Shown: positions 4,432-30,394 of the stretch, one piece after another
Position numbering within the stretch: the first letter of the stretch is position 1
Layout of the letters: every line of letters begins with the position of its first letter
IMG/VR virus record: IMGVR_UViG_3300029266_002412
Location: 1 to 50,409 of that record
Length of the DNA stretch: 50,409 bases
Source of the DNA: a virus
Reading direction: 5' to 3' (one strand)
Notes under the pieces: generated by a model
Told to the model about the DNA's origin: nothing
The model's input: the letters and a program-made list of their open reading frames with translations, nothing else
Database searches by the model: none
Translations under genes and position numbers: made by a program

Positions 4432-4435
4432 ATAT

Positions 4436-10330: not shown

Positions 10331-10358
10331 ATTCTTTCTCCTTTTTAATTTGTATATT

Positions 10359-10384: not shown

Positions 10385-10390
10385 AAAAAA

Positions 10391-10996
10391 TTATACTGTA
10401 TCTATGTACTTAATTTTTGATTTTTTATTTTTTAGTTCGCTGAAGTATTTCTCTCCAACCCACCAATCTTCCCAAGGTTCCCATATACTATTACCTTTGT
10501 TGTCATATTTTTCTGTACCATCTGTAAGTACGTCTTCAAACAACATCTTATATCCTGAAGCTTCAAGTATTTTTATAGAATCTTTCTTTCTTGCATCTGT
10601 AACTTCTGAATCTGCATATGAATCGTGTTCAAATGTCATAAAATCAAATGTATAGCCATTAGAGATTAAGAGCTCTAGACAAGGTATCGAAGCATCATCA
10701 ACATCAAGCGATATATAGTCGAAGTGTTTTACATTTGATTTAGCATCTAAAATTTCTATAAAACTCTGTACAGTAACGTCTGCTTTTATGCATTCGTTTC
10801 GTCTATCTGATTTGTTAAATAGATCTATCCATCTCTGTTGAAAATCTACTGATATACCTTTCCACCCTAACCACTCTAATGCTGCTGTGTTATTTCCTTC
10901 AAAAGGGTGGTGGCTACCTAGATCTAAATAACATCCTCTGCCTCCAATTAGTTTATGTGCAAACTTATCTTGAAATTCTTTAGCGTAATATTGCAT
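10391..10996 (-). CDS. FkbM-like SAM-dependent methyltransferase
   Basis: A 201-residue protein with GRGCYLDLGSHHPFEGNNTA, the glycine-rich SAM-binding motif I of FkbM-family methyltransferases (family form: ...vDiGAhxGxxS...), then GWKGISVDFQQ (acidic end of strand beta-2) and DYISLDVDDASIPCLELL, the conserved catalytic/SAM-proximal segment (usually ...D.E..E...L). FkbM enzymes O-methylate sugars or polyketides. Located among glycosyltransferases, it is likely to cap or decorate the glycan this cluster makes. It overlaps the upstream glycosyltransferase by 17 bases. Acceptor unknown. Confidence 0.8.
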   Translation of the reverse strand: MQYYAKEFQDKFAHKLIGGRGCYLDLGSHHPFEGNNTAALEWLGWKGISVDFQQRWIDLFNKSDRRNECIKADVTVQSFIEILDAKSNVKHFDYISLDVDDASIPCLELLISNGYTFDFMTFEHDSYADSEVTDARKKDSIKILEASGYKMLFEDVLTDGTEKYDNKGNSIWEPWEDWWVGEKYFSELKNKKSKIKYIDTV

Positions 10997-11801: not shown

Positions 11802-12619
11802 ATTTCTGAATATATTCTTTTTAGTGTTTCTTCTACCTTTATTTCTAAAAAAGATATAAGTTCAATTCCTTTATATTTTCCAAACCATTCTTCGTATGTA
11901 CAACCTACTCTATTATCAGTCTTTACTTTTAAGCCTAGCATTCTCGCTTCTAAAACTAATCTGCAGCAAGATTCGAATGCATGAGAAAAAAACACGATTC
12001 CTTGATATTTAGAAATGGTTTCTATAAGTTCCTTCCATTGACAGTTTTTAACATAATCATAAGGTATTGCTTGAGTCTCACAAAGTTGTATTGCTTTATT
12101 GCTTCTCTTACCTGGAACTATGCACCATTTAGAATCTTTATTTTCTTTATACATTTTTCTTATATGGTCGAATTGATCTTGTGAAAACTGAGTACAACCT
12201 AGCGTTTCGATATTTTCTATATCTAGATGCATGTTCATTATCTCTGCCTGTTTATGAGTAAGACAGAATACCTTTTTCGCATGAGAGTAAAATGATTTAT
12301 TAACAACTTTTGATTGAGGTGCAATAAAGCCATCATACATAGCTGTGTTTCTAGTATCAACGTACTTCTGATCACGCTCGATTATTATATATGTTGCTGA
12401 TTCCTGAAACCACAGCTTAGATTCTTCACTAAGTCCTGCAAAGTTAGAAATGATAAAAACATCAGCCTTATGTATATTCGGGCTAAACGTTTGACTTTTG
12501 ACAGTTTTCAAATTAACGCCTTTTTCTTTCAGATATTTTATAACTACTCCATCTGATAGCTCTGCACCTCCTATTATTTCATCTTCAAAAAAGTCTGATA
12601 TGTATATTATGTTCTTCAT
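11798..12619 (-). CDS. Glycosyltransferase, GT4-like (short)
   Basis: A 273-residue protein opening MKNIIYISDFFEDEIIGGAELSD, the GGxE loop typical of GT4 acceptor domains. Mid-chain VFCLTHKQAEIMNMHLDI matches the hinge helix region, and IVFFSHAFESCCRLVLEARMLGLKV contains an E...E-like donor site (family form E-G-x-P..E-A-x-A-x-G), here FESCCRLVLEARMLG. It is shorter than usual GT4 enzymes (about 350-400). It overlaps the CgeB-like gene by four bases, so the two are coupled and may act on consecutive sugars. Donor unknown. Confidence 0.75.
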   Translation of the reverse strand: MKNIIYISDFFEDEIIGGAELSDGVVIKYLKEKGVNLKTVKSQTFSPNIHKADVFIISNFAGLSEESKLWFQESATYIIIERDQKYVDTRNTAMYDGFIAPQSKVVNKSFYSHAKKVFCLTHKQAEIMNMHLDIENIETLGCTQFSQDQFDHIRKMYKENKDSKWCIVPGKRSNKAIQLCETQAIPYDYVKNCQWKELIETISKYQGIVFFSHAFESCCRLVLEARMLGLKVKTDNRVGCTYEEWFGKYKGIELISFLEIKVEETLKRIYSEI

Positions 12620-12624
12620 GTTTG

Positions 12625-13071
12625 TTATCTTTTAATTATATCGTCGTCAAAATCATAATCGATGAGTTGTACCAGTCCCATCTTATTAAGAAATAACGTT
12701 CTGTAACCATTATTGTAAATTCTTTTCATATCTGATCTTAATGTACCTATATAGAATCTCATAGAAGATTGCTCCATTACAAGCTTTGGAATATCCAGAG
12801 CTCGCTTTTTATATCTAGGTATTTCTCTAATTCCAGTGTCTCTTGCAAGAGCATTGAAGTGTGTAGTAGAAAATTCATTTAGATTTAATACGTGTGTCAC
12901 GCCTCTAAATAAAGGATTCAATATTAAAAACATGTAGTTCTTTTTCTCACCTTCTCTGTTTTGGTACAAATTAGATACAACCATACCTTTCTGTAAATCT
13001 TTTTTAGGTATAATCAAACGTGAATTCATTTTCATCAAGTGTTGATTGTAGTAATTTGTGCTAGGTATCAT
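12625..13071 (-). CDS. Unknown phage protein, 148 aa
   Basis: A 148-residue protein with an N-terminal segment MIPSTNYYNQHLMKMNSRLI followed by KNYMFLILNPLFRGVTHVLN and a basic C-terminal half (RFYIGTLRSDMKRIYNNGYR). LNPLFRGVTHVLNLNEFS reads like conserved hypothetical proteins beside structural genes of marine T4-like phages, where some are called DNA-end or head-tail proteins. I cannot confirm that and make no functional claim. It sits between glycosyltransferase genes but shares no sugar-binding motif, suggesting it was inherited with the island rather than acting in it. Confidence 0.65.
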   Translation of the reverse strand: MIPSTNYYNQHLMKMNSRLIIPKKDLQKGMVVSNLYQNREGEKKNYMFLILNPLFRGVTHVLNLNEFSTTHFNALARDTGIREIPRYKKRALDIPKLVMEQSSMRFYIGTLRSDMKRIYNNGYRTLFLNKMGLVQLIDYDFDDDIIKR

Positions 13072-13550
13072 TATATATCGCCTAATGCAAAACCTTTAAC
13101 TTTCTTACAAGCCGCAAGGTATTCTACAAAAAACTCAGCCTTTGACATATCTACCTTAGATTCTATATCTGTGCCTTCCATTATATCATTGACACCTTCT
13201 GCTACTGGTGCATAGCACCATTTTATTTTTTCGTTACCTACAACTTCATCACCACTATGCAATGCAACTTTACCAGCAGGAAAAACAAAGCATTCTTTGG
13301 TCTGTATTGTTGCTGGGTACCAATATGATTCGCCATCGTCATATCTTAATGTTTTAACTATATCTGGCATTGAAGATTCATATTCCTCAATGTTAAAGTC
13401 CGGATGCTTCTTGTAATTTAATGGGAATTCGTTTGTATACATACCTGAGCTCAAGTCCATTCTTGAAACACCTGACTTTTCATCAAATTCTTGCAGTACC
13501 ATGTCTTTTCCTGTTATCGGACTCTTCGTCCATTCTTCATTATTATTCAT
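13071..13550 (-). CDS. Unknown phage protein, 159 aa
   Basis: A 159-residue acidic protein: EEWTKSPITGKDMVLQEFDE at the N terminus, RYDDGESYWYPATIQTKECF in the middle and SKAEFFVEYLAACKKVKGFA at the end. The N-terminal SPITGKDMVL has the look of a zinc-less ribbon or a small binding domain, but the cysteines are absent. No catalytic signature is seen. Its one-base overlap with the 148-aa gene and eight-base overlap with the GT4 gene show it is part of the same transcript. Proteins of this type accompany marine T4-like phage structural genes; function unknown. Confidence 0.65.
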   Translation of the reverse strand: MNNNEEWTKSPITGKDMVLQEFDEKSGVSRMDLSSGMYTNEFPLNYKKHPDFNIEEYESSMPDIVKTLRYDDGESYWYPATIQTKECFVFPAGKVALHSGDEVVGNEKIKWCYAPVAEGVNDIMEGTDIESKVDMSKAEFFVEYLAACKKVKGFALGDI

Positions 13551-14874
13551 ATGTTTGTAGCTCTTCTAGTTTAGGGATTTCAAATTCAGTACTAAACGAT
13601 GGTAAATATCTTTCTAGTATATCACCAAAGCTTTCTGTCATCTTTTCAAGTGAAAAGTTAACCTTCATGTACTGCGATTGTTTTCTTGTTTTTTCTAAAT
13701 GTTTTTTGTAGTTTTTATGTACGTCGTTCATCACACTAGCTGCAAACTGATAGTTTATGTAAAACCAATTTGATTCAGCAACTATTACTTCTTCCCATAC
13801 AACTGAAGGGTGAACTTGTCTTAACTCACCTTCCATAAGAATACCGTGTTCTGATAGAAAATCTACGTGTCCTGACCAACCTGGAGCAATTACTGGTTTT
13901 CCTGTTAATGAAAATTCAGCAAGAGGTCTACCATATCCTTCACCATGTGTAAAGCTTACCATAGCTTTTATTTTTGAATGGTTGTAAAGTGAATTCATTT
14001 CCTTATCAGTTAGATCTCCCCATACTATATATACATTAGGAACTCTTTTGTTTGCTTTAGCAAAATTATTTCTTAGGTCACTTATTTTCTTTTTAAGTAT
14101 TATTTCTTCTGGTACAGAAAAACCTATACCTGTTTTAATAACTAATGCAGGTTGGTTTCTAGAGGAAAGCTTTGTAAAAGTAGATAAGAACGTATGTATT
14201 GTTCCACCTACATCTTTTCTATCGTGAGTAAACTCTCCGTTCATCCAATGGCCACACAAGATAAAGCAAAAGTCTTCTTCTATAGAATCCAAAGTTTCAG
14301 CAACTGATTTTTCTATTTTTGATTTCTTATTGTAAACTTCAATATCCACACCTTCAAACAAAACTTCAATTGGTTTTGTGTTAGCTAGTGTTTCTACTAT
14401 TTTCTGTGTGTTCTGGTCTATCTTGTCGTAAGTGCATGTAAATGCTCTTGCAGAATGATTTGAAGGTACAATATTCATGTCCATTCTGTTCATTCCTTCT
14501 AACCACTGAGGTGAAACTCTGTCAGTCTCTATCCCTGCTGTAATTCCAATGTTATATTTACCTACAGCTTGGAATTCGTTAGGAACAGTAACCTGCATCC
14601 ATATATCTGGCTGGTTAGATATTTCTTGATTTGCTGTAGTTATGTCTAATATGTCTTTGTTTTCTTTTCTTGTTAATTCTGTACGAGGGCAAGTACCCCA
14701 TCTCTGATCCAAGACTTTTATATTAAACTTGTCTAATGCAATTAAACTTCTTATTAAATCTCTTGAGTGATTTCCATAGCCACTTCTACTAGATGCAGGA
14801 CAGCTAATTATTATTGTTGGTTTATTCTGATTCATATTATAGTACTCCTGTTGGATATATTGGTTCTGGTTCAT
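13543..14874 (-). CDS. GT4-family glycosyltransferase
   Basis: A 443-residue glycosyltransferase group 1 protein. SSRSGYGNHSRDLIRSL is the GxG acceptor-side loop; MNIVPSNHSARAF is the hinge helix; FCFILCGHWMNGEFTHDRKD begins the donor domain; and AMVSFTHGEGYGRPLAEFSL contains the EGxxxxxAE donor motif (HGEGYGRPLAE), followed by GKPVIAPGWSGHVDFL. These match GT4 retaining transferases closely. The protein is full length. It overlaps the next GT4 gene by 38 bases and is probably cytoplasmic. The donor sugar is not readable, but a GDP- or ADP-linked sugar made by the island is plausible. Confidence 0.88.
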   Translation of the reverse strand: MNQNQYIQQEYYNMNQNKPTIIISCPASSRSGYGNHSRDLIRSLIALDKFNIKVLDQRWGTCPRTELTRKENKDILDITTANQEISNQPDIWMQVTVPNEFQAVGKYNIGITAGIETDRVSPQWLEGMNRMDMNIVPSNHSARAFTCTYDKIDQNTQKIVETLANTKPIEVLFEGVDIEVYNKKSKIEKSVAETLDSIEEDFCFILCGHWMNGEFTHDRKDVGGTIHTFLSTFTKLSSRNQPALVIKTGIGFSVPEEIILKKKISDLRNNFAKANKRVPNVYIVWGDLTDKEMNSLYNHSKIKAMVSFTHGEGYGRPLAEFSLTGKPVIAPGWSGHVDFLSEHGILMEGELRQVHPSVVWEEVIVAESNWFYINYQFAASVMNDVHKNYKKHLEKTRKQSQYMKVNFSLEKMTESFGDILERYLPSFSTEFEIPKLEELQTYE

Positions 14875-16246
14875 TCGTGTTTATTAATTTAAAAGACTTC
14901 ATTGGTTTCCAAGTTTCAAATAATGATTCAAAAGCTTTTATTACTTTATCACACATACCTTCTTTATTGAATCCGTTTTCTATTGCCCAATTTCTTCCTT
15001 CAAGTCCCTTTGCTTTTCTCTTGTCTCTACCCATATCATACCAATACTTAATTCCTTTTTCAATATCATCTATTGTTGGTCTTGAGTCGTAAATGTATGG
15101 TGTAACTGGTGATCCTTGTATGCTCTGGTTAGGCCATAACGGATAAGTCCACGATCCGTGATCTTTTGATATCTTACCAGTTGAATTGCTTGGTACTTCT
15201 GCTGTAAAGTGTTTTACGCTAAGTTCTTCGCCATTTACTTTAAATCCTAGTTGATCTTGCAGCCCTCCACACACAGTTGCTATAGTAGGTGTTCCAGCCA
15301 TCATACCTTCCATGTGTGACAACCCAAACCCTTCTGCTGAAGATGGATTGCAAATTACATCTGCTATGTTATATAGTACATTTAATTTTTCATATGGAAG
15401 CTTTGCTGTGCTAAATATAACTTTAAGACCTGGATATAATTTAGTTGATACAGCCTGAAGGTCAGTTCCATGTTCGTCTACAATATCAGTGTGCATTAAT
15501 AGACATACTTTAGTCTTTTGCTCTTCGCTAAGCTTAGTCCAAAACTGTCCAAAAGCCTGTATTAAATCAGAACACCCTTTTCTTCTAATATTTCTACTAT
15601 TAAAAAAGCAAATATATTCAACGTCCTGATCTCCAAATAAAGCTGTTTGGGTACCTATTACTTCAGGATGTACATCGTCTAAAGGGAAGTACTTTTTATC
15701 ATCTATACCATGTTGAACATAATGTAAATCTACATCTTCAACTCTTGGTGAACGCTGACATACGTGTTTATTTATATTGTATGTCTGCTTTGATATTCCC
15801 ATTAAAAGATCGCACGATTCGTAAAATGGTTCATTCCAATGAGGGAATGGAAGATCATCCCATATATTATAATATGATATTGGCGTATGCTGTCTTAATT
15901 CGTGTGCCATTTCATATAGCCAGCCCCAAAATCTAGGATCTGTAAAATGCATGATAGCATCTGGTTTTTCGATATTAATAACATCTCTTAATATATCTGG
16001 GTTTCCATATCCAGATACAGGTAATACTTTAATATAACCATCTGAAACTCCTGATTCTTTTATTGTGTCTTGTTGCTCTGAAAGATCTACAAAGCCTTTT
16101 CCTTCTTCAGGATGCTTTATAGCGCCACCGATCTGAACCCAATCATATTTGTGTAATGTTCCCATTACAATTTCCTTTGACATCGTACCTACACCTGAGT
16201 GAAGTCTAATATCATCTCCTAATAATAGTATTTTCTTTTTTGCCAT
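14837..16246 (-). CDS. GT4-family glycosyltransferase
   Basis: A 469-residue GT4 enzyme beginning MAKKKILLLGDDIRLHSGVG, with a SGVGTMSKEIV acceptor loop, and a C-terminal donor motif VICNPSSAEGFGLSHMEGMMAGTP (the usual PSxxEGFGLxxxEaMAxGxP). YICFFNSRNIRRKGCSDLIQ is the typical start of the donor domain with its RKG. It is the first large gene of the glycosyltransferase island and shares 35 bases with the ribbon-helix-helix-like gene upstream. The close pair of GT4 genes suggests two consecutive transfers on the same acceptor. Confidence 0.88.
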   Translation of the reverse strand: MAKKKILLLGDDIRLHSGVGTMSKEIVMGTLHKYDWVQIGGAIKHPEEGKGFVDLSEQQDTIKESGVSDGYIKVLPVSGYGNPDILRDVINIEKPDAIMHFTDPRFWGWLYEMAHELRQHTPISYYNIWDDLPFPHWNEPFYESCDLLMGISKQTYNINKHVCQRSPRVEDVDLHYVQHGIDDKKYFPLDDVHPEVIGTQTALFGDQDVEYICFFNSRNIRRKGCSDLIQAFGQFWTKLSEEQKTKVCLLMHTDIVDEHGTDLQAVSTKLYPGLKVIFSTAKLPYEKLNVLYNIADVICNPSSAEGFGLSHMEGMMAGTPTIATVCGGLQDQLGFKVNGEELSVKHFTAEVPSNSTGKISKDHGSWTYPLWPNQSIQGSPVTPYIYDSRPTIDDIEKGIKYWYDMGRDKRKAKGLEGRNWAIENGFNKEGMCDKVIKAFESLFETWKPMKSFKLINTNEPEPIYPTGVL

Positions 16247-18874: not shown

Positions 18875-20810
<1,936 letters not shown>

Positions 20811-20812
20811 AT

Positions 20813-21523
20813 TTAACTCTCCTTTTCTAATTGTAATTCATATTCTGATTTTGTGCATGTAACACCTGTTTGCTCTTTTACAAGTTCAGGTGTTGTACAT
20901 GACTGATTGAAACTTGCAAATTCTGTATGTGATTTCCACCTACCGCAGCCTGCAAATAGACAGCCAAACGCATTAGATAGATAATCAGCCTTAGCGTATT
21001 CGCATTTCTTTGTTACGTCACACATAGGCTTAAAGCCATACGCCATTTCAATACCTGCTTCTAACATCTTCTGTCTTAATAGCCAATGTAAACCTACAAT
21101 GAACTCTTCTTCACAAAACTGTAACCTTCTTGCCATCTGGCCTCTTAGTGAACCTATGGTTTGTTCTACGACATAACTACATTCTCTAGACATAAGATTT
21201 AGTGATGATGGTTCTACTTGAGAATCCATATCCTGGTTCTCATCTCTTAATTCTTCTAGCTCTTCCAGGGTTTCCATTACTTCTTTTTTAAATTCAGGAT
21301 CTTTCTCCATAGTATCCCACACTTGGGTATATACTACGTAGTTAGGTTCTTCACTAACTTTATAATCTTTAAATTTTATACCTACTCTAGCTCTTGAATG
21401 CTGGTCGAATTGACATACAGGGGTTCCTGTTACTTTATAAGAGATCATCCCTGAATCTTCTTGGTAACTAAGAATTTCTACGCCTAAGCATTCAATACCT
21501 TTTTTAACTATAACTTTATTCAT
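20813..21523 (-). CDS. Unknown Cys-rich phage protein, 236 aa
   Basis: A 236-residue protein. The N-terminal third is beta-rich (VKKGIECLGVEILSYQED ... VTGTPVCQFDQHSRARVGI); the middle is strongly acidic and helical (EVMETLEELEELRDENQD), likely coiled coil; the C-terminal third is cysteine-rich (PMCDVTKKCEYAK, NAFGCLFAGCGRWKSH, FNQSCTTPELV). Eight or so cysteines there could hold zinc or an iron-sulfur cluster. I recognise no family. It overlaps the ThyX-like gene by eight bases and precedes groES by three, so it is co-expressed with both. A link to thymidylate synthesis or chaperonin work is possible but unproven. Confidence 0.7.
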   Translation of the reverse strand: MNKVIVKKGIECLGVEILSYQEDSGMISYKVTGTPVCQFDQHSRARVGIKFKDYKVSEEPNYVVYTQVWDTMEKDPEFKKEVMETLEELEELRDENQDMDSQVEPSSLNLMSRECSYVVEQTIGSLRGQMARRLQFCEEEFIVGLHWLLRQKMLEAGIEMAYGFKPMCDVTKKCEYAKADYLSNAFGCLFAGCGRWKSHTEFASFNQSCTTPELVKEQTGVTCTKSEYELQLEKES

Positions 21524-22331
21524 CTGTAAATAACTTTTTATCTGATTCGCTTAGATCTTCGAATTTAATGTCTGTAATATATTTTAGTACATCTTCTGTA
21601 TTGTTGTGTATAACCTTTAAGTATTCTCCTATCAAAGGAAACTTATCTGCTACAGATTCTATAACTTTTAAATACAATTCGCTCATTGCCCATTCTTTAT
21701 TATCTATCTGATCAAATTTACCTGACGCATTGAAACCTCGCATGCTTACAAGTGATAATAGATTTTGGCCAAAATGATATGAATGCTGATAGCTTTGAGG
21801 CAAGAAAGATCTTGCAGATTGCCAAGAAGCTTGGTCTGTATCTAATGCTTTTGCATATAAACCTTTAAGTCGCTTCATTACTCTTTTCTGCTTTGAGCTA
21901 AGCTCATCAAGAGTAACAATGTCCACATCAGATTTGTTATTGTCTCTACAGCCTATACTCATAAAACTAGTAAAAGGAGTTTGTGTATGGTAATCGAAAA
22001 GCCATCTTGGCACGCCTCTTACTCTGAATATAAACTGCACCATCTCCCTAGCTTGAGGTAAAGTGTTGTGTGTTAATACAGCCTTGACTACTTCTAGCTT
22101 ACCTTCCGGTGAAGTAATTGGCCACTTTCGTTCAAACTCATTGTCTCCCCAAGTAGATGTGCTTGTAACAAACATAGACTTATAAGGATTTGACATGTGA
22201 TCTTCTAACGTGACCTCCACCTCATCTTGTAATAATTTGAATTCTGTTTTTAGTAGTGGCTGTTCTTCAGGTAATGTTCCCATCACAATTCTCAGATTCT
22301 CAACCACGTCGTAACTTAATTTATCTTGCAT
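21516..22331 (-). CDS. Divergent ThyX-like (flavin-dependent thymidylate synthase family) protein
   Basis: A 271-residue protein with REMVQFIFRVRGVPRWLFDY then HTQTPFTSF near residues 95-123, matching the ThyX region in which an R(H)R-x7-S motif follows helix FxFR-x-x-PR; here the canonical RHRxxS is replaced by DYHTQTPFTS. SARSFLPQSYQHSYHF, then QNLLSLVSMRGF and KEWAMSELYLKVIESVADKF, corresponds to ThyX's R-x-x-LP...N-x-R-x-L...AQ-x-E-I-R segments. ThyX makes dTMP from dUMP with FAD and folate. The loss of RHRxxS means activity or substrate may differ, for example a modified pyrimidine. A promoter-like element lies upstream. Confidence 0.6.
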   Translation of the reverse strand: MQDKLSYDVVENLRIVMGTLPEEQPLLKTEFKLLQDEVEVTLEDHMSNPYKSMFVTSTSTWGDNEFERKWPITSPEGKLEVVKAVLTHNTLPQAREMVQFIFRVRGVPRWLFDYHTQTPFTSFMSIGCRDNNKSDVDIVTLDELSSKQKRVMKRLKGLYAKALDTDQASWQSARSFLPQSYQHSYHFGQNLLSLVSMRGFNASGKFDQIDNKEWAMSELYLKVIESVADKFPLIGEYLKVIHNNTEDVLKYITDIKFEDLSESDKKLFTDE

Positions 22332-22356
22332 ATTTCATAACCTTTTTTATTATATA

Positions 22357-22382
22357 TAAATATAACAAAACTTTCCGATATA
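22357..22382 (-). promoter_or_regulatory. Shared phage promoter-like element (site A)
   Basis: Minus strand reads TATATCGGAAAGTTTTG then TTATATTTA, with a ribosome binding site and ATG at 22331 about 25 bases beyond. It is nearly identical to site B before the membrane-protein gene at 39802 (only one base differs across the 26). Confidence 0.6.
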
Positions 22383-22388
22383 AGGAAA

Positions 22389-25300
22389 TTATATTAACTT
22401 TTTTATCGAAGAGTTTTTGCTTTTTGTGAAACCGAACTTGTTTTTTGACGAAGGTATTAATACAAATTCACCTTCTTTTAATCCTGCAATGTCCCTTGTA
22501 TTGAATATGGTAATATATAACTGTTTTAAATCATCTTCTAATACGATCTTGTAAAATTCTCTACCTGTTTTTTTAGATTTCTTAATAATTATTTTATTTA
22601 TTATACCATACATTTGAAACTGACCTTTATCTAAATCATCAGGTATTTGCTTTGGGCTAGTTAACTGGCGTATTATATCAGGTGCGTTGTCTTGAAAGAA
22701 TTCTGTATATTTAACAAAAGGATGCTGGCTGAAATAAAAGTCAAAGTACTTCTTTTCAAATGCAAACTTTTCAGATTTCTGCCAATCCTTTTCACCTACA
22801 TTAGATTCTAATACTTCTTTTACTTTGTCATCTACATTTTCTTTCTTCTTAAGATTTTTACATGCAGTAAGTACCTCTTCTAATATCTTTGAATTATCGA
22901 AAACAGTTTTAAAATATCCTAGTCTACACAAAGGTTCATATGTACGTTTCGTAACTTTGTTTTCAATTATAAAATTAACAAGATCTGGTATTGTTTTTAT
23001 CTGATCTGGTTTAATTGAGTTTATAAGTGCAGCATCTTTGTCAGGCACACCTTTAACTAAGTTTAAGCCGAATTTTATAGAGTCACGTTCTCTATCTATT
23101 TCAAATTTATTACCTGTTTGGCCGATAATGAATTCATTGAATCTTATACCTTTACCTTCGATCTGTTTAACAAACCAACTTAATTCATCGTTTGTAGAAT
23201 GATTAAGTAGTGATGCGTAATATTCTTTAGGATAGTGAACTTTTTGCCACATAGATATATAAGCATTCATAGCATATGCAAGTGAGTGAGACTTGTTAAA
23301 TGAATATTCAGAATATTTACCTAAAACATCAAGTAATTCATCTATATCCTTGTCTTCCATACCTTTTGCTCTAGCTCCTTTCTTAAATCTATCAAGCATG
23401 TCATAAAAATTACCTTTTTTAGCTTGATTACCTTTGTGCAACAACTTAAGGATTTTTCTACCACCATCTGCTTCAGCTAATGTAAATCCACCTATCTGCT
23501 GTAATATAAACATAATCTGCTCTTGGAATATTGGAACACCTAGCGACTCACCTAATATATCCCAAAGAATTGGAGATTTTTTGTCTAGAAGCTTTTTTGC
23601 CTCTTCCGGATTTTCGCGGTTTTTGAGATATTCATCAATTCCACCGGCCTGGATTATGGCAGGGCGAAACATTGCATTGATAGAAGAAAGATCGATAATA
23701 TTTTTTGGCTTAATTGTTCGGATTAAATTTATCATATTATCTGATCCAAATTGAAATATGTCCTTGCAGTTACCTGTTTCAAACTCATCATAAACAGCCT
23801 TATCATCAAAGTCAGATTTTAGTATCTCTTCTTCTAGACCATATTTTCCATGATCTTTTTCTATCAACTTAAATGTATCATTAATAACCGATGCTGCTTT
23901 TAAGCCTAGAATATCTAACTTACAATAACCTAGATCACTTACTTCACGTTCATCTCCACCTTCCTGTACACCGGTAACAATTTCACCTTTCAATCTTAGC
24001 AGAGGTATTTCTGATTTGTCTAGATCTTTATTGCTTACAAGTATACCTGATGCATGTCTACCTGTTTGTCTTACCATACCTACCATCTTAGGTGCTACCT
24101 TTAAAAACAATTCTTTGTTATCTTTTATAAATGCCATAAGATCTTTTTCACCTTTTTTCTGAGCAATAGTAAAAGCATTTTTTATTTCTATTTCTATAGG
24201 TGAGTTAGGATCCTCTCCAAAATATCCTGTAAGTTTATTTGATAGAACAAAGTCTAGTTCATGTATTCTACATAAATCTTTTACAGTAGTCTTTGCACCG
24301 AACTTACCAAAGTTTGCGATGTGACATACACGTTCAGTACCAAACTTATCTTTAAGATAACCTTCACATAGCTTTTGAGTATCAGAATCTATATCTAAAT
24401 CTACATCTGCAGGGTCAATTCTAGCAGGGTTTAAGAACCTTTCGAAAATTAGATTATGTCTAATCGGATCGATCTTTGTAATATCTAGCACAAATAAAAC
24501 AAGAGAACCACCTGCTGAACCTCTACCTGCACCTGTTGCACCACCTACTTTATATACAAAGTTGTTTAACAGATCATCTAAAATAAGGAAGTAGTCAATA
24601 AATCCTTTCGATTTTATAATGTCCAATTCATATTTTAATCTATCTGTATATTCTTTATTATTGTCAGGTAGTAAGCCATTGCCTATCTTCTCAACCCATT
24701 TTACTTTAAGCTTTTCCATAAATTCAGATTCACTTTGCTGTTTGTCTTCATGATACTTAGGAAAGTTATCTGGATATTTAGGTAGTTCTATGTTAACCTT
24801 GTCGTTTATTTCGAATGTAGAATCGATTGCCAATTCTAGGAATTTCTTATCCATTCCATATTTCTCTGCTTCAGCATATATCTCATCTATCTCTTTGATG
24901 TATAACGAGTGAACACTATAGAACCAATCTTCTACTGGATACGATTGCACTGTTTCACGCTGACGTATTACATATAACAAGTATTGGATGTACCAATCAT
25001 CTTTATTTGCGTAGTGATAATCTAAAGAAAACACAGGTTTTATTCCTGTTTTTTCATACACCTTGTGGTAAAAGTTATTACATTGCATCTGCATATCAAG
25101 ATTGTTAAGCTGTATTTCAAGATAGAAGTCTTCACCAAACTTATCTCTATACTTTTTAATAAGCTTTAATGCCTCAACCTCATTTCCAGATAATATGTAT
25201 TGATTCCACTTTGATTGTAAGCACCCTGTAGTAATTATATTATTTTCATCTAAAGTGTTGTATACTTTATCCATACTAGATAAAGGCTTTCTATAAAATG

Positions 25301-25742
25301 TATCGAAACTTGAATTTGAAACCTTTAATATATTTTTAACACCTTCATAGTTTTTAGAATAAACAAGAGTGTGATTGTTTGCAGCAGCTGATTTGTCTAG
25401 GTGTTCACCGGCATCACCTATTACATCGATGGAGCCTTTTTTTAGATCTAAGAATTTTTCATGATCACTATGATATAAATCATTAGTATATAATTCACAG
25501 CCTATAATTGGATTTAGATTGTTTTCCCTTGCTTGTGTATAAAACTTAGAGAACGAAGACATGTTGCCATGCTCTGTCAATGATATACCTGGTGCACCTA
25601 CCTCTTTTGCACGAGTCATTATATCCTCTATCTTTGTTACACCATCTCCTTGTGAGTAAGTAGAATGGCCGTGCAAAGGAACATAGTTTGTAAATTTATT
25701 TCCTGTTTTGTACTTTAGTTTGTAGTCACATTTTTGACACAT
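22389..25742 (-). CDS. dnaE: DNA polymerase III alpha subunit (family C), DnaE-like
   Basis: A 1117-residue replicative polymerase. A PHP domain opens near residue 20 (YVPLHGHSTYSQGDG, ISLTEHGNMSSF); GAGRGSAGGSLVLFVLDI at about 404-421 is the catalytic GRGSAAGS segment; PADVDLDIDSD at about 444-454 is the PDIDIDF-type motif with two catalytic aspartates. The palm and fingers (YSEYSFNKSHSLAYAM) are followed by a C-terminal OB-fold-like region (FYKIVLEDDLKQLYITIFN). Family C polymerases are the bacterial replicases and are uncommon in phages. The beta-clamp-binding motif was not identified. A promoter-like element precedes it. Confidence 0.95.
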   Translation of the reverse strand: MCQKCDYKLKYKTGNKFTNYVPLHGHSTYSQGDGVTKIEDIMTRAKEVGAPGISLTEHGNMSSFSKFYTQARENNLNPIIGCELYTNDLYHSDHEKFLDLKKGSIDVIGDAGEHLDKSAAANNHTLVYSKNYEGVKNILKVSNSSFDTFYRKPLSSMDKVYNTLDENNIITTGCLQSKWNQYILSGNEVEALKLIKKYRDKFGEDFYLEIQLNNLDMQMQCNNFYHKVYEKTGIKPVFSLDYHYANKDDWYIQYLLYVIRQRETVQSYPVEDWFYSVHSLYIKEIDEIYAEAEKYGMDKKFLELAIDSTFEINDKVNIELPKYPDNFPKYHEDKQQSESEFMEKLKVKWVEKIGNGLLPDNNKEYTDRLKYELDIIKSKGFIDYFLILDDLLNNFVYKVGGATGAGRGSAGGSLVLFVLDITKIDPIRHNLIFERFLNPARIDPADVDLDIDSDTQKLCEGYLKDKFGTERVCHIANFGKFGAKTTVKDLCRIHELDFVLSNKLTGYFGEDPNSPIEIEIKNAFTIAQKKGEKDLMAFIKDNKELFLKVAPKMVGMVRQTGRHASGILVSNKDLDKSEIPLLRLKGEIVTGVQEGGDEREVSDLGYCKLDILGLKAASVINDTFKLIEKDHGKYGLEEEILKSDFDDKAVYDEFETGNCKDIFQFGSDNMINLIRTIKPKNIIDLSSINAMFRPAIIQAGGIDEYLKNRENPEEAKKLLDKKSPILWDILGESLGVPIFQEQIMFILQQIGGFTLAEADGGRKILKLLHKGNQAKKGNFYDMLDRFKKGARAKGMEDKDIDELLDVLGKYSEYSFNKSHSLAYAMNAYISMWQKVHYPKEYYASLLNHSTNDELSWFVKQIEGKGIRFNEFIIGQTGNKFEIDRERDSIKFGLNLVKGVPDKDAALINSIKPDQIKTIPDLVNFIIENKVTKRTYEPLCRLGYFKTVFDNSKILEEVLTACKNLKKKENVDDKVKEVLESNVGEKDWQKSEKFAFEKKYFDFYFSQHPFVKYTEFFQDNAPDIIRQLTSPKQIPDDLDKGQFQMYGIINKIIIKKSKKTGREFYKIVLEDDLKQLYITIFNTRDIAGLKEGEFVLIPSSKNKFGFTKSKNSSIKKLI

Positions 25743-25766
25743 AGTTTACCTTTTTTATTTTATATT

Positions 25767-25794
25767 ATAATATAACAAATTTATGGGAGATATG
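25767..25794 (-). promoter_or_regulatory. Shared phage promoter-like element (site I)
   Basis: Minus strand reads CATATCTCCCATAAATTTG then TTATATTAT, about 25 bases before the DnaE start at 25742. It matches the TTTGTTATATTA right half exactly; the left half is less regular than in other sites. Confidence 0.5.
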
Positions 25795-25819
25795 AAAGGA
25801 TTTTGAGAAGTATTTTGCA

Positions 25820-25834
25820 AAAGTTATTAACAAT
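25820..25834. repeat. 15-bp sequence shared with 39897-39911 (AAAGTTATTAACAAT)
   Basis: The 15 bases AAAGTTATTAACAAT occur here and at 39897-39911. In both places they overlap or touch the stop codon of a minus-strand gene and lie just upstream of a promoter-like element. The core GTTATTAAC is a near-palindrome, so a protein-binding site is possible. Confidence 0.4.
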
Positions 25835-26318
25835 GAGTCCAGGGCTTTAAACCATTCTCCATAAATCTATGAAGAGATGTTATGTGAACATGTATTTTTC
25901 CAAACTTATATTCAGGCCAGCAAGTTATGAGTGCAGACATAATCATCATATAAGTCTGATTATCATAGCAGAAATTGTTATCAAAGTTTTGACTTCTTAC
26001 AAACACATGTATATCTATCTTTCCATCTCTTGCTATTGCCTGTATTGTAGAAAGACAAGCTGTTAAATATGGATTGTCTTGATATGTTTTATGAAGCACA
26101 CATTGCCTAGACTCTATACCTTTTGTTTCGCATATCTGTAAAATGTCTTCTATGATCTCGTTGCGTTCGATTTCATCGCCTTCTAAAGCAGGAGGTATTT
26201 TTTTACCCATAAATCCTGAATCAACCTCTACATCATAATTAAAATTGTATACTTCTCTATATGTGGAACTGCCTTGTGAGCTTAGCAGGCTTTCTATTTT
26301 CTGTGTTATTTTCTTCAT
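25827..26318 (-). CDS. ThyA/dCMP-hydroxymethylase-family protein, short
   Basis: A 163-residue protein with the core motifs of the thymidylate synthase superfamily. NPYLTACLSTIQAIARDGK aligns with the PCHxxxQFxxxDGKL active-site segment, the catalytic Cys being C88 and the following His replaced by Leu. HVFVRSQNFDNNFCYDNQTY matches LxxRSxDxxxGxPxNxxxY, giving the phosphate-binding Arg-Ser and the conserved Asn. KIHVHITSLHRFMEN corresponds to the late GDxHxY segment. Canonical enzymes are about 260-310 aa; the N-terminal region is missing or very short. Substrates in this family are dUMP or dCMP with methylene folate. The reaction here, methylation or hydroxymethylation, cannot be settled. It overlaps the reductase by 62 bases. 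Confidence 0.72.
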   Translation of the reverse strand: MKKITQKIESLLSSQGSSTYREVYNFNYDVEVDSGFMGKKIPPALEGDEIERNEIIEDILQICETKGIESRQCVLHKTYQDNPYLTACLSTIQAIARDGKIDIHVFVRSQNFDNNFCYDNQTYMMIMSALITCWPEYKFGKIHVHITSLHRFMENGLKPWTHC

Positions 26319-27321
26319 AATGCTTTACTATCGATAAATATGTTTTTGTTATACCTTCTGCTGAATTCATTGCATCAGCAGGCAAATTGTAGTGCTGATA
26401 TAAATCATAAAAGTTTTTTGATTTTCCATTGTGTCTTGCAAGGTAGTCACCTTCTGCAATTATGTTTATGTGCTTGCTTAAATTATCACACCCTGTTACT
26501 TGCTGTATAAGATATAGATAGTTTTCAAATGCCATTGGTCTATCTTTACTTATTATAAAGTCTTTGCCCCAACCATTATCCATTAACAAAAGAGTAATAA
26601 ACATATCAGCAAAGTATTCATATCTCATATAGTCTTTTTCTATTTTAGGATCAAGCAGTACATCAAGTTTGCCATTTTCATTAAGTGGAGACAATGTATA
26701 AGGTATGTTGTTCTTACCACAATATACTTTTTCTGTTATCTTTCTTATCATAGATGAGTTGTCGAATGGTGCATCACCATAAATAAACACAGGTTTTATA
26801 ACCATCATTTTATCAATATCCATAGCCTGTTTTACAGCTAGTTCACCTGAGTATTTAGATAAACCATAAAGTGTTTTAGGATCTATTTTTGCAGTTTCAT
26901 CAAACTCACCATTGTTTTTCATGTACTCATCAGGATCAAATACTGCAGTAGTTGAAAAGTAAATAAGCTTACAGCCTACAGCGTTAGCTACGTTTATAAG
27001 ATTTTGAGTACTTACAATGTTAGAATTTACCGCCTCGTATGAAAAGTCATCACACTTATCTGTATTGACATAAGCAGCTGTATGTATTATAATGTCTTCT
27101 TCTGTTAGTTTTTTCGCTACAAGATCCAATACATCTGTATCAGTTACGTCAACCTCTTTGTCTTTTACAAGCTTTCCATTTAGATAGCTAAAGTCGTTTG
27201 TATATTTAGCTAGATCAGAATTGTCCATAATTTCAAATCTTTCTTGATTAGATTCTTTGATTGCTTTAATAATAGACGTTGCTAACATTCCACTTTCACC
27301 TGTTATAAATATTTTTCTCAT
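26257..27321 (-). CDS. RmlD-like NAD(P)-dependent sugar reductase/epimerase
   Basis: A 354-residue SDR: MRKIFITGESGMLATSIIKA is the GxxGxxG-type nucleotide loop; DIIIHTAAYVNTDKCD follows RmlD's N-AAYTxVDxAE; KLIYFSTTAVFDPDEY and KTLYGLSKYSGELAV give the S/T...YxxxK triad. VIKPVFIYGDAPFDNSSMI resembles the later RmlD segment. dTDP-4-dehydrorhamnose reductase acts on dTDP-4-keto-rhamnose; other family members act on GDP- or UDP-sugars. It is unusual here: it lies in the nucleotide block, away from the main sugar island. It is coupled to the kinase-like gene by ATGA and shares 62 bases with the ThyA-like gene. Confidence 0.8.
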   Translation of the reverse strand: MRKIFITGESGMLATSIIKAIKESNQERFEIMDNSDLAKYTNDFSYLNGKLVKDKEVDVTDTDVLDLVAKKLTEEDIIIHTAAYVNTDKCDDFSYEAVNSNIVSTQNLINVANAVGCKLIYFSTTAVFDPDEYMKNNGEFDETAKIDPKTLYGLSKYSGELAVKQAMDIDKMMVIKPVFIYGDAPFDNSSMIRKITEKVYCGKNNIPYTLSPLNENGKLDVLLDPKIEKDYMRYEYFADMFITLLLMDNGWGKDFIISKDRPMAFENYLYLIQQVTGCDNLSKHINIIAEGDYLARHNGKSKNFYDLYQHYNLPADAMNSAEGITKTYLSIVKHYEENNTENRKPAKLTRQFHI

Positions 27322-27740
27322 AATTTCTCTTGTATTTTTCCTGCTGATTGATTTATGTCATCAAGCGTAGTATCTATTCTATCTACTTTTATGTCGTATT
27401 CTATAACAGCTGTTTCAAGCACATCGTAAAAGACATCTCTATGTTTTTTCCAGTCTTTTATATCCAAATCCGCTTCATCGTGCTGTATAAATCTTTTCTT
27501 TACCAAGTCAAATGAACAGTCAATGAAATAAAATTCCTCACCTCTTTTGCTAGCATTTGACCATAGTTCAAAAAACAACTTTTCATTTATGTCTCTTTTA
27601 TATAACCTGCTATATGCTATCTGAGATAAAAAAGATCTTATATAAACCAGTGTGCTACCTTTTCCGTTTTTAACTACTTGTCTTCTTATCGAGTCTTTGC
27701 CTGTCTTATCAGGGCCGTCAATGTGTACTATCCTTCCCAT
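27318..27740 (-). CDS. Thymidylate kinase-like P-loop protein, short
   Basis: A 140-residue protein with GRIVHIDGPDKTGKDSIRRQ, a Walker A loop (GPDKTGKDS) of the deoxynucleoside-monophosphate kinase type, usual form GxDGxGKST. EFYFIDCSFDLVKKRFIQ resembles the Leu-D-x-x-x-xxAxxR stretch of thymidylate kinase, with part of the LID region lost. Typical TMP kinases are about 205-215 aa, so this is truncated or minimal. The neighbouring dUTPase, MazG-like fusion and thymidylate-synthase-like genes point to dTMP or a modified dNMP as substrate. It overlaps the upstream gene by 13 bases. Activity on a hypermodified nucleotide would be consistent but is speculative. Confidence 0.72.
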   Translation of the reverse strand: MGRIVHIDGPDKTGKDSIRRQVVKNGKGSTLVYIRSFLSQIAYSRLYKRDINEKLFFELWSNASKRGEEFYFIDCSFDLVKKRFIQHDEADLDIKDWKKHRDVFYDVLETAVIEYDIKVDRIDTTLDDINQSAGKIQEKL

Positions 27741-28081
27741 GTCGTCATCTCTTCTGTTATTCTTTTCAAATGATACACAGAAACTTTTCCAAATATCAAA
27801 GTCTTGTTGTATACAAGAATTTCATTTTCACTTTTTCTATGTAAATCAAATGCATCTTCTACTACAATATCTAGGCTTCCATAACCCGTGCTGTCTTCCA
27901 TAGGTATGCAGCATACAAATTCTCTTTCATAATCTTTTACTAACGAGTATGCCCAAACATCTCCTATAAAAGATTTTGTTTGTATCCTGTCTTTTACCAA
28001 AGATTCCCAGAATTTTATTTCTTGCTTTGCAGCTGGATTTTCATAGAAACAATAAGTTAATTTAATTTCCTGTACTACCAA
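27728..28081 (-). CDS. Unknown protein, 117 aa (TTG start)
   Basis: A 117-residue protein, VVQEIKLTYCFYENPAAKQE and FVCCIPMEDSTGYGSLDIVV, ending RITEEMTTWEG. The first codon is TTG at 28081; AGGAGG two bases upstream is also coding sequence of the dUTPase, and no ATG occurs until residue 61. It is alternately hydrophobic and acidic, with a likely alpha/beta fold; no motif is recognised. It lies between dUTPase and the TMP-kinase-like gene with 13-20 base overlaps on both sides, so it is surely translated in this operon. A nucleotide-metabolism accessory role is a guess. Confidence 0.6.
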   Translation of the reverse strand: MVVQEIKLTYCFYENPAAKQEIKFWESLVKDRIQTKSFIGDVWAYSLVKDYEREFVCCIPMEDSTGYGSLDIVVEDAFDLHRKSENEILVYNKTLIFGKVSVYHLKRITEEMTTWEG

Positions 28082-28523
28082 AGCCTCCTTCTCCTCTACT
28101 TGTTACATTAAGCTCATCAACTTCTTTAAATTCAAAGTTAGGTACAGGCATGACAATAATCTGACCTACTCTGTCACCTGGTGAGTATCTTTCTATATCT
28201 GTAGAACAACCTGATTTTTTAAATCTTAATTTTACAGGGCCTCTATATCCCGAATCAACTACACCAACGCAGTTAGCTAGCATCAAATCTGTTTTAGATA
28301 CAGAACTACGTGGGAATAAATAACCTACGTATCCTGCAGGTATTTCCATAGCAAGGCCTGTGTCGTACTCCATGTATCTAATTTCTTGAGATGTGAAACC
28401 TTCAGTTGGAGCTCCATACTTTACTGTCATTGATACTGCTGTTAAATCCATACCTGCATCGCCTAGTTTTGCGTATGTCGGTATAGTTGCTGTTGGGTCT
28501 AATTTTTTAATGTTAATTTTCAT
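28062..28523 (-). CDS. dut: Trimeric dUTPase
   Basis: A 153-residue dUTP pyrophosphatase with all five family motifs: GDAGMDLTAV (motif 1, near residue 21), YLFPRSSVSKTD (2), NCVGVVDSGYRGPVKLRF (3, with catalytic Asp and uracil-binding Tyr), YSPGDRVGQIIVMP (4) and the C-terminal GEGGFGSTG (5). The length and motif order are normal. It removes dUTP and supplies dUMP to thymidylate synthesis. It is encoded directly after the MazG/HAD fusion. Presence of an intact dUTPase argues against a uracil-containing genome. Confidence 0.95.
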   Translation of the reverse strand: MKINIKKLDPTATIPTYAKLGDAGMDLTAVSMTVKYGAPTEGFTSQEIRYMEYDTGLAMEIPAGYVGYLFPRSSVSKTDLMLANCVGVVDSGYRGPVKLRFKKSGCSTDIERYSPGDRVGQIIVMPVPNFEFKEVDELNVTSRGEGGFGSTGN

Positions 28524-29451
28524 TGTGAACTACCTCTATTATATTACCGTTAATTATTTTAATTCCTTCGTTTAGTTTTCTATCAAGTGTTTTCTGTGAG
28601 TATATACCTAGATTCTTTCTAAGATATACCTTGAATCCACTATCGTGTAACTTGTTTGCATTTTGAATATCATCATCTATACAGAAAGCTACCTGATCTG
28701 TATTAAAATTATTGATTATATACTTTTCTTTCTCCTCATCGAATACGATTGCATCATAGCATATGTCATTATCTTTAAGCCACTTTAAAGTATCTGAATA
28801 TATTCTAAAGTATTTTTTGTAAGGTCTTGCAGTTAACAACACAACACTATATTTTTCACATGTTCGTTTCATAAAAGATTCTACACCTGATAATACTTTT
28901 AGCTTAGCTTTTACTCCACATGTTCTGTATTCTGCTTTTATTCTGTACTGCTCTTTCTTATCTACTTTTTCTTTAAACTGCTTAAGCGAATCGTATCCTG
29001 CCCATTCAAGGAAACCACCAGGCCAGTCAGCAAGTACACCATCAATATCTATAAATGCTATTTTTTTATCTGACGCCTTGATAGAATCCATAACATCTTC
29101 CTGTTTAAATTTAGCTTCGACAACGTTTGACTTGTCAATAAACTTTTCATATAATTGATCTACAGAAAAACCGTTTAGTTGTATAATGCCAAACAAGTAT
29201 TTTAGCACATCAACACATTCTTCTAATACATTGTCATTAACATCTTCTGTATTTTTTGATGTGTGCATCTTCCAATCTATCTCATCAAGTACTTCATATA
29301 CCTCTTTAGACAGTGCTAGAACGTACTCTTTGTTCCATTTAATTCTTAGTTCTTTGTTATTACGGACTTCATTAACGGATAATCCTTGTTTTTCAAAAAA
29401 CTTTTCTGTGAATTCTTCTTGTATCTTAAATATTTCTTTTAATTTATCCAT
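28513..29451 (-). CDS. MazG/dimeric-dUTPase-like domain fused to HAD 5'-nucleotidase-like domain
   Basis: A 312-residue two-domain protein. Residues 1-115 are all-helical and contain NKEYVLALSKEVYEVLDEIDW and NVLEECVDVLKYLFGIIQLNG; the E-x3-E...E-E-x-x-D pattern is the metal-binding signature of MazG/dimeric dUTPases. Residues 130-290 are a HAD domain: KIAFIDIDGVLADWPGGFLE (catalytic DxD), KYSVVLLTARPYKKY (motif II Thr) and IVFDEEKEKYI...FCIDDDIQNA (motif IV DD). The first domain would remove pyrophosphate from a dNTP, the second a phosphate from a dNMP. This points to nucleotide-pool remodelling such as removing a normal base nucleotide. It overlaps dUTPase by 11 bases. Confidence 0.83.
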   Translation of the reverse strand: MDKLKEIFKIQEEFTEKFFEKQGLSVNEVRNNKELRIKWNKEYVLALSKEVYEVLDEIDWKMHTSKNTEDVNDNVLEECVDVLKYLFGIIQLNGFSVDQLYEKFIDKSNVVEAKFKQEDVMDSIKASDKKIAFIDIDGVLADWPGGFLEWAGYDSLKQFKEKVDKKEQYRIKAEYRTCGVKAKLKVLSGVESFMKRTCEKYSVVLLTARPYKKYFRIYSDTLKWLKDNDICYDAIVFDEEKEKYIINNFNTDQVAFCIDDDIQNANKLHDSGFKVYLRKNLGIYSQKTLDRKLNEGIKIINGNIIEVVHNEN

Positions 29452-30394
29452 TGGTTTCCCATTTTTTTACTTTATCTAATACTTCGTTTGCCTTAACCTT
29501 ATGGCTCCACTCTGCAAATCTACCTAGCATTGTTATGCCACACATAGATTCTATATCTTCACTGTTTGTTATTTGTATAGGTATATCTTCGAATTTCATA
29601 TCTATTTTGTTACCTTGTATGCTATCACCCTCAATAGGTTCTACAGATTCGTACACCATATAGTCTCTAAAATAAGTACACCTAGTCCAGTCAGCATCAA
29701 TAGAGTATATGTAGTCATAAAATGTAGAAGGGTGGCCAGTATTCATTGCATCGTTAACTGAAAATCCATATTCGCATTTGTAAAAGCTTTTCTTAGAAGT
29801 GCTAAGATCTATCTTATACTTTTCACACTCTGCTTTTATCTGAGGTGATACTTTCTTTAATATGTTTAGGTTGAGTGTATTTATAATGCTGCCGTATTCA
29901 GATGATGTATCATTTGCAAATTCTATTCTCATCATTTCTGTATCTATAGATTTTACTGACGTTCTTACAAGCTGGCCTCTGTCTTCTATTATTCTTAAAA
30001 GTTTAATAAAAAAAGTCTTATAACTATCTTCACCAAACTCTCCAAATTCTACATGTGCAATCTCAGTCTTACCTTCTGAAAGATGACTGCCTTCACTTGA
30101 TTTACCTCGTGTCTTAAGACTATATTGTTTTTTGAAATTATCATCAGGAGTATCATATACACCATTTTTGTCATGATATCCTATAATGCAATGTTCTACT
30201 TTTATCTCAAAGTCATTCATTACTTCCTTAACAAACCACTTCATATCTGATGTTGCTTGTAATAATCTTGGGCCTGGTATGAATGGCATATTTAATTGAC
30301 CTAAAGGTTTTTCATCTATAACCTTGTAGTCCTTATTGTAATATGCAGCTATCAATCCTGCAGGGCCTGCTCCTAATATATAATTCTGTTTCAT
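29444..30394 (-). CDS. FAD-dependent oxidoreductase-like protein
   Basis: A 316-residue protein starting MKQNYILGAGPAGLIAAYYN, the GxGxxG dinucleotide-binding loop of FAD/NAD oxidoreductases, then YKVIDEKPLGQL with the acidic end of strand beta-2. SYKTFFIKLLRIIEDRGQLV and SSEYGSIINTLNLNILKKV look like the second FAD-contact region of the UDP-galactopyranose-mutase/amine-oxidase-like clade. It is shorter than those enzymes (about 370-450) and no substrate motif is recognisable. A promoter-like element immediately upstream shows it opens the nucleotide-metabolism transcript. A role in base or sugar modification is possible from context. Position before the MazG/HAD fusion is the only functional clue. 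Confidence 0.7.
   Translation of the reverse strand: MKQNYILGAGPAGLIAAYYNKDYKVIDEKPLGQLNMPFIPGPRLLQATSDMKWFVKEVMNDFEIKVEHCIIGYHDKNGVYDTPDDNFKKQYSLKTRGKSSEGSHLSEGKTEIAHVEFGEFGEDSYKTFFIKLLRIIEDRGQLVRTSVKSIDTEMMRIEFANDTSSEYGSIINTLNLNILKKVSPQIKAECEKYKIDLSTSKKSFYKCEYGFSVNDAMNTGHPSTFYDYIYSIDADWTRCTYFRDYMVYESVEPIEGDSIQGNKIDMKFEDIPIQITNSEDIESMCGITMLGRFAEWSHKVKANEVLDKVKKWETNG

Follow-up and report, generated by a model that had tools for sequence, protein, structure and literature searches.

The window analysed here, a 50.4-kb viral record (IMGVR_UViG_3300029266_002412, taken over its whole length of 50,409 nucleotides), has no end repeats and is probably a fragment. Its minus strand carries a cassette of genes for nucleotide metabolism, conserved among divergent phages, in which two adjacent genes, here called XA and XB, encode homologues of the thymidylate synthase ThyX. 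The residues that bind deoxyuridine monophosphate (dUMP) in canonical ThyX are divided between the two proteins, and from this division we predict a ThyX that works only as a heteromer of XA and XB and arose by duplication and complementary loss. The same cassette encodes THYA, a minimal protein of the ThyA fold with a residue typical of enzymes acting on cytosine. An earlier note on this DNA had described a lone unusual ThyX-like protein and a short ThyA-like protein beside nucleotide-editing enzymes, and had suggested a modified pyrimidine in the phage DNA. The genes it named are all present on the minus strand at the positions given, and its interpretation is partly supported; the observation is more interesting than was described, namely an apparent two-gene ThyX of complementary degeneration, found in a conserved cassette together with a cytosine-type relative of ThyA.

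The ThyX-family proteins XA and XB

XA (21516..22331, minus strand), a protein of 271 amino acids, had been noticed as a ThyX-like protein without the RHR motif, and it is indeed a member of the Pfam family Thy1 (E = 1.5e-6; the score of 28.6 bits exceeds the family cut-off of 24.8) with DYHTQTP at the position of RHR. It keeps Arg109 and Arg129, which correspond to R87 and R107 of the Mycobacterium tuberculosis (Mtb) enzyme, the arginine of the ARxxLP motif (Arg174) and Asn190, and has lost both RHR and the position of Mtb R199. The assignment also draws on residues invariant in 17 relatives and in 11 diverse relatives. The motif SIGCRDN (residues 125-131; 21939..21959, minus strand), corresponding to the arm that subunit C contributes to the dUMP site of canonical ThyX, is invariant except for Ile or Ala at residue 126.

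The second gene, XB (20813..21523, minus strand), codes for 236 amino acids and was overlooked by the earlier note. Alone, XB gave no match to Thy1 and no other meaningful match in Pfam or among PDB sequences. Its AlphaFold2 model (predicted local distance difference test score, pLDDT, 71; predicted template modelling score 0.72; tail below 50) aligned with PDB entry 3fnn at a VIA Z score of 10.7 over 156 residues with a root-mean-square deviation of 3.4, and 47 ThyX-family rows preceded the first unrelated structure (Z 3.0); PolB (PDB 4p5a) was among the best fold matches. Judged by this model and by its similarity to the single-chain protein of locus L064 described below, XB is a second ThyX homologue. 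It keeps R44-A-R46 at the RHR position and R133 at the position of Mtb R199, and has lost the arm present in XA. The surrounding motif DQHSRAR (residues 40-46; 21386..21406, minus strand) is invariant in XB and was aligned to the canonical RHR region via the single-chain family. The divergent ThyX reported earlier is real, but it appears to be one half of a predicted two-subunit enzyme.

Of 39 viral loci encoding XB, 36 have XA immediately upstream; two others start inside XB, and the last (L064) encodes a single protein matching both. The two genes are therefore adjacent in 36/36 testable two-gene loci. In four phages, L064 and, from a further scan, L113, L114 and L142, a single-chain ThyX stands in place of XA and XB, and these chains are clear members of Pfam Thy1 with 46.7, 51.1, 38.5 and 48.9 bits; their E values run from 1.9e-13 to 1.3e-9, with 8.5e-13 and 4e-12 between. 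The L064 chain is 41% identical to XA over residues 14-211 and 39% identical to XB over 206 amino acids (residues 100-305). Because these alignments overlap across the whole ThyX core, XA and XB are not halves of a split gene, and a plain division of ThyX into N- and C-terminal genes is ruled out. A tail in which five cysteines are invariant (C168, C174, C188, C193 and C209 in the window), perhaps a metal site, is common to XB and the L064 chain.

In a maximum-likelihood tree rooted on canonical ThyX and computed from 111 core columns, a short alignment with long branches, the single chains L142 and L114 were basal, while XA, XB and the remaining single chains formed one clade with 100% support; XB was supported at 100%, and its grouping with L098 and L113 at 82%. 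This topology agrees with the view that a single-chain ancestor was duplicated. Between the window and L002, nucleotide identity is 90% for XA and 86% for XB, as against 62-72% for the FAD, MazG/HAD, SDR, DnaE and GroEL genes described below, which suggests that the XA-XB pair has been exchanged as a unit.

Searches of PDB sequences with the XA and XB profiles gave no matches or chance matches. In a phage collection of 50,697 records no match to XA, XB or THYA was found, and the single chain retrieved only one weak canonical ThyX; pattern scans of bacterial and archaeal genomes with XA and XB revealed no relative. All known members come from contigs of uncultivated viruses, and culture-based work would therefore overlook the family.

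Two subunits bind the dUMP of Mtb ThyX: subunit A provides Arg95 and Arg199, and subunit C provides Arg87, Ser105 and Arg107, while the RHR motif of subunit A lies on flavin adenine dinucleotide (FAD) (PMC6514825). The distribution of these residues was read from an alignment that combined XA and XB with single-chain and canonical ThyX, with column counts in 11 diverse XA-XB pairs. Arginine occupies the positions of Mtb R87 and R107 in 11/11 XA and never in XB; conversely, all 11 XB but no XA have it at those of R95, the first arginine of RHR, and R199. Of the two paralogues, only XA retains the ARxxLP arginine, and the asparagine following it is present in every XA and almost no XB; the single chains have all of these residues. 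The RHR motif is represented by RAR or RQR in XB and the single chains and is absent from XA. All dUMP-contacting arginines are held by the single chains, and by XA and XB together, but by neither XA nor XB alone. This division mirrors that between neighbouring subunits of the canonical homotetramer.

Methylene transfer by ThyX uses a serine and a tyrosine (S88 and Y91 in Thermotoga maritima; PMC8316439, PMC11940539). In the whole clade of XA, XB and single chains these columns are Gly and Asp, and an invariant serine stands two residues before the Gly. An 84-kb record with both XA and XB (G018) encodes in addition a canonical RHR ThyX with VRHRLCSFAQESTRYV (E = 1.3e-44), so that this phage does not depend on the cassette ThyX for dTMP. 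The replacement of Ser and Tyr and the presence of this canonical enzyme make plain dTMP synthesis doubtful, and XA-XB probably has another product.

The ThyA-fold protein THYA

THYA (25827..26318, minus strand; 163 amino acids) matches the phage ThyS family with E = 8e-4, and the top matches of its AlphaFold2 model (pLDDT 90) are all ThyA-superfamily structures. T4 dCMP hydroxymethylase (gp42) comes first (Foldseek E = 6.6e-8) and is also the best profile match; MilA is matched with a VIA Z score of 12.8, and the dCMP hydroxylase AfhB of phage HY126 (9iqu) and 9iqc are matched as well. The structure prediction that the earlier note had proposed as a check thus bears out its hydroxymethylase likeness, but gp42 shares the place of closest functional analogue with the 5-hydroxy-dCMP synthase of phage RB69, a flavin-linked enzyme. 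The modelled fold, the nucleophilic Cys88 and the phosphate-binding Arg108-Ser109 place THYA in the ThyA superfamily. The catalytic cysteine had been recognised before; the lack of a following histidine, also remarked upon, is uninformative since T4 gp42 and the RB69 enzyme lack it too. Cys88, Arg108-Ser109, Asp119 and His150 are kept in 13/14 THYA sequences of a wide alignment; in the narrower comparison Asp119 is invariant.

Asp119 (25962..25964, minus strand) stands at the position of Asp179 of T4 gp42, the determinant for dCMP (PMC6400193), where Escherichia coli ThyA has Asn177. In the RSQN motif (residues 108-111; 25986..25997, minus strand) Asn111 replaces the folate-serving Asp carried by gp42 and by ThyA (Asp169 in E. 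coli); the title of PDB entry 1bjg states that the D221(169)N mutant fails to promote opening of the cofactor imidazolidine ring. THYA is also about 65 residues shorter than gp42 ahead of the SRQ motif, and the segment with E. coli Glu58 or T4 Glu60 is missing. Together, Asp119, Asn111 and the missing segment make dCMP the likely substrate of THYA and folate chemistry unlikely.

RB69ORF048c, described as the 5-hydroxy-dCMP (5-hodCMP) synthase of Mosigvirus (PMC13390438), corresponds to PDB 9iqc (540 bits), entitled 'Monooxygenase dependent on riboflavin with dCMP and FAD'; its flavin dependence is taken here from PDB titles. Like THYA, it has RSQN and an Asp at the cytosine position, and the pairwise match between the two is weak (E = 4e-4).

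Other observations concern the surroundings of these genes. A SAM-methyltransferase-like gene lies between or beside KIN, the kinase-like gene of the cassette, and THYA at L055:504-1403 and L060:437-1309. In L055 none of the Cys, Arg-Ser, Asp and His remains in the THYA copy. L032:1493-2662 (RB69ORF050c), two genes away from the gene for the RB69 5-hydroxy-dCMP synthase, encodes a protein of the peptidase-U32 family (7e-11), which includes RNA cytidine hydroxylation proteins.

The conserved cassette and its surroundings

In the window the cassette is a minus-strand run of tightly packed genes for an FAD protein, MazG/HAD, dUTPase, a 117-amino-acid protein, KIN, SDR, THYA, DnaE, XA and XB, and is continued by GroES and GroEL genes (18875-20810), which directly follow XB in the window clade. 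The FAD-binding protein with GAGPAG, present as the earlier note had claimed, is located at 29444..30394, mostly beyond the range given there, and the best PDB profile matches of its family, weak ones, are UDP-galactopyranose mutases (E = 0.005). A MazG/dUTPase_2-type NTP pyrophosphatase fused to an NT5C-like HAD phosphatase (28513..29451), assigned by family matches and found beside ThyX even in single-chain lineages, a dUTPase (28062..28523; Pfam 7.5e-19) and KIN (27318..27740), a small P-loop nucleotide-kinase-like protein whose TMP-kinase-like match (2.4e-4) is below the cut-off, were all confirmed. Besides XB, two other members of the conserved cassette had been overlooked: SDR (26257..27321), similar to dTDP-4-dehydrorhamnose reductases (Pfam RmlD 8.2e-27; family profile against PDB 8e-24) and of the nucleoside diphosphate (NDP)-sugar type by profile, and the 117-amino-acid protein (27728..28081), which is conserved across cassettes and gave no match in family searches. 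The DnaE-type DNA polymerase III alpha subunit (22389..25742, minus strand) lies within the cassette at a position that differs among phages.

The genes for the FAD, MazG/HAD, 117-amino-acid, KIN, SDR, THYA, XA and XB proteins recur in divergent contigs (L050/L099, L053, L054, L056, L057/L102, L059/L100 and L060/L101), with or without inserted DnaE and with occasional losses. As they co-occur in dozens of contigs, with XB identity down to 39-57%, the cassette is not due to chance. The FAD and HAD genes also adjoin the single-chain ThyX in L064, L113, L114 and L142. The kit of synthase, kinase and nucleotide-destroying enzymes envisaged earlier is thus found as a conserved cassette with two systems of the thymidylate synthase superfamily. 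KIN and THYA are fused into one protein in three lineages (L022, L057 and L113), which fits a kinase acting on the THYA product. A dCMP deaminase gene is present in 6/16 records, in several beside the cassette. dUTPase occurs in five records (G000, G002-G005) and a gene of the uracil-DNA glycosylase (UDG) superfamily in six (G014, G015, G017-G020), with both in none of these incomplete records, as if either could serve uracil exclusion.

Several rearrangements were seen in related loci. A UDG-superfamily domain is fused to the kinase in L053:2769-3722 and L054:2892-3743, and to the DnaE polymerase (1283 amino acids) in L057:1329-5180. In the 145-kb record L022, DnaE is present as two adjacent open reading frames of 427 and 748 amino acids (L022:5487-9018), and a cysteine-synthase-like pyridoxal phosphate enzyme (PALP, 7e-68; L022:2226-3173) precedes the FAD gene. 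Downstream of the cassette, the window contains a deoxysugar and glycosyltransferase block (1458-16246) encoding a dTDP-glucose 4,6-dehydratase-like protein, an NDP-hexose 2,3-dehydratase, a DegT aminotransferase, a Gfo/Idh/MocA protein and several glycosyltransferases, two of them of phrog_2170 at 13.5-16.2 kb. It had been suggested that glycosyltransferases decorate the base, but a search for TAGT-type DNA glycosyltransferases gave no match. The helical domain of the 5-hmdU DNA kinase (HMUDK) was also without a match in a search whose control was equally silent. The nearest RecA from a cultured phage belongs to Microcystis phage Mel-JY01 (53%).

Proposed pathway, alternatives and known systems

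A modified pyrimidine in the phage DNA is likely, since divergent phages repeatedly carry the FAD, MazG/HAD, kinase, ThyA-like and ThyX proteins as a set. The reading we favour, with a probability of about 0.5, is that the product of the cassette is a modified pyrimidine deoxynucleotide destined for the phage genome. XA-XB would be an obligate heteromeric flavoenzyme of the ThyX family, derived from a single-chain ancestor by duplication and reciprocal loss, with active sites only at the XA-XB interfaces, where the arginines on the RHR side and a second one for base and phosphate would come from XB, and the opposite arm from XA. It would bind a pyrimidine deoxynucleoside monophosphate (dNMP) and flavin, and perform flavin chemistry on the dNMP. 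In THYA, a ThyA fold cut to about 160 residues, Cys88 would attack C6 of dCMP held by Asp119, and C5 would probably be functionalised by flavin/oxygen chemistry (through a flavin-derived oxidant or another electrophile), as in the RB69 5-hydroxy-dCMP synthase, because the folate residues are missing. KIN may phosphorylate the unusual dNMP, MazG/HAD and dUTPase (or UDG) would remove normal dCTP/dUTP or uracil and yield dNMPs, and the FAD protein and SDR may perform further steps of completion or decoration. More tentatively, this could be a new pathway, in which a heteromeric ThyX, whose five-cysteine tail may bind a metal or an iron-sulfur cluster, and a minimal dCMP enzyme of the ThyA fold that works without folate carry out flavin chemistry on dNMPs and give a base undescribed in any DNA.

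Several points weigh against this reading. No significant alignment of the XA or XB profile with that of canonical ThyX was obtained because the two families are shallow, and the link to canonical ThyX runs through the single-chain members and the fold of XB, for which the evidence is a model of moderate confidence (pLDDT 71, tail below 50). Few positions enter into the residue partition, and throughout the clade Gly fills the Ser105 column. THYA has Leu85 at the position of Asp145, three residues before the catalytic Cys, which the T4 hydroxymethylase needs (PMC6400193) and at which the RB69 enzyme has Glu. The THYA proteins of the single-chain lineages L113 and L142 retain the folate Asp169 (RSSD), and the gene, being absent from L002 and degenerate in L055, is not indispensable. 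What the analysis demonstrates is homology, linkage of the genes and the partition of residues; activities, substrates and chemistry, the XA-XB complex and the modified base with its identity are all inferred.

The same genes could instead serve ordinary dTMP supply, with XA-XB as a heteromeric dTMP synthase, THYA as a reduced auxiliary and the rest as the usual nucleotide set of a large lytic phage (ribonucleotide reductase, dUTPase, MazG and TMP kinase). This would agree with the retained dUMP-contacting arginines, with the class II ribonucleotide reductase and dUTPase adjoining the cassette, and with the lack of canonical ThyA and ThyX in most related records, although incomplete records weaken all arguments from absence, including this one. 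We regard it as unlikely, given that G018 possesses a canonical ThyX besides XA-XB, that the Ser and Tyr for methylation are replaced clade-wide (role of S88/Y91: PMC8316439) and that THYA carries the cytosine Asp. It is still less probable that THYA and XB are inactive regulators or scaffold subunits left from decay: the degenerate THYA of L055 and the several ThyX site residues lost from XB would suit such a history, but the residues retained do not vary even between very divergent phages and are apportioned by subunit, and the single-chain relatives hold both sets.

Other alternatives concern the base that THYA would make. As a short folate-using dCMP hydroxymethylase with KIN as its kinase, and with XA-XB making dTMP, it would lead to 5-hydroxymethylcytosine as in T4, whose hydroxymethylase is its best profile and fold match and shares the catalytic Cys and, in Asp119, the equivalent of Asp179. 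The position of the folate Asp169 is, however, Asn in the window, the Glu60 region is missing with some 65 residues before the SRQ motif, and the required Asp145 is Leu85 (PMC6400193), which renders this quite improbable; THYA and the kinase as a T4-like pair were dropped for want of the Asp145 and Glu60 equivalents. A narrower form of the modified-pyrimidine reading is a glycosylated 5-hydroxycytosine as in RB69: THYA would yield 5-hydroxy-dCMP, SDR and the mutase-like FAD protein would make a nucleotide-activated rare sugar, which a glycosyltransferase encoded nearby would couple to DNA, while XA-XB supplies dTMP or reduced flavin. The RSQN...D arrangement common to both enzymes, the mutase matches of the FAD family (E = 0.005), the NDP-sugar type of SDR and the two phrog_2170 glycosyltransferases point in this direction; nevertheless the match to the RB69 enzyme reaches only E = 4e-4, that to the mutases is weak, a TAGT-type enzyme was not found by search, and the residue at Cys-3 is Leu in the window and Glu in RB69, so that this too seems unlikely.

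Among known systems, the thymidine-hypermodification sets of phages ViI, M6 and SP10 (general knowledge and PMC9599517) likewise bring together an enzyme of the thymidylate synthase family, a kinase and NTP-destroying enzymes, but the cassette is ThyX-based rather than ThyA-based, and the 5-hmdU DNA kinase helical domain had no match, with the control silent. PolB, a UMP/dUMP methylase (PDB 4p5a), is also a ThyX-fold enzyme acting on UMP/dUMP, but is the product of a single gene of a Streptomyces pathway. THYA has equivalents of Cys148, Asp179, the Arg-Ser and the Ser-x-His of T4 gp42, and lacks those of Asp171 (folate) and Asp145 and the Glu60 segment. With the RB69/HY126 5-hydroxy-dCMP synthase (AfhB; 9iqc, 9iqu) it shares the ThyA fold, the catalytic Cys, and RSQN with Asp at the cytosine position; unlike that enzyme, it is about 75 residues shorter (24% identity in the alignment), has Leu instead of Glu at Cys-3 and is set with a kinase and a ThyX pair. 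Should a modified base be its product, the cassette would extend phage DNA modification by a route based on flavin, of relevance to escape from restriction and CRISPR, and would be a source of nucleotide-modifying enzymes.

Canonical ThyX of T. maritima and M. tuberculosis agrees with the XA-XB system in its fold, in the core residues for dUMP phosphate and base and for flavin (Mtb R87, R95, R97, R107 and R199) and in sites shared between subunits. It differs in being a homotetramer of one gene product, whereas here two paralogues divide the site in a predicted heteromer; moreover, here the His of RHR is Ala or Gln, the Ser105 column is Gly and Tyr108 is Asp, XA and the single chains have an N-terminal insertion of about 50 residues, and XB and the single chain have the five-cysteine tail. 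ThyX has been described as a homotetramer with inter-subunit sites; in these phages such a site appears to have been divided between two genes by duplication, with single-chain relatives still extant. XA and XB may thus represent a clean model for the origin of obligate heteromers, which tells which subunit gives which residue.

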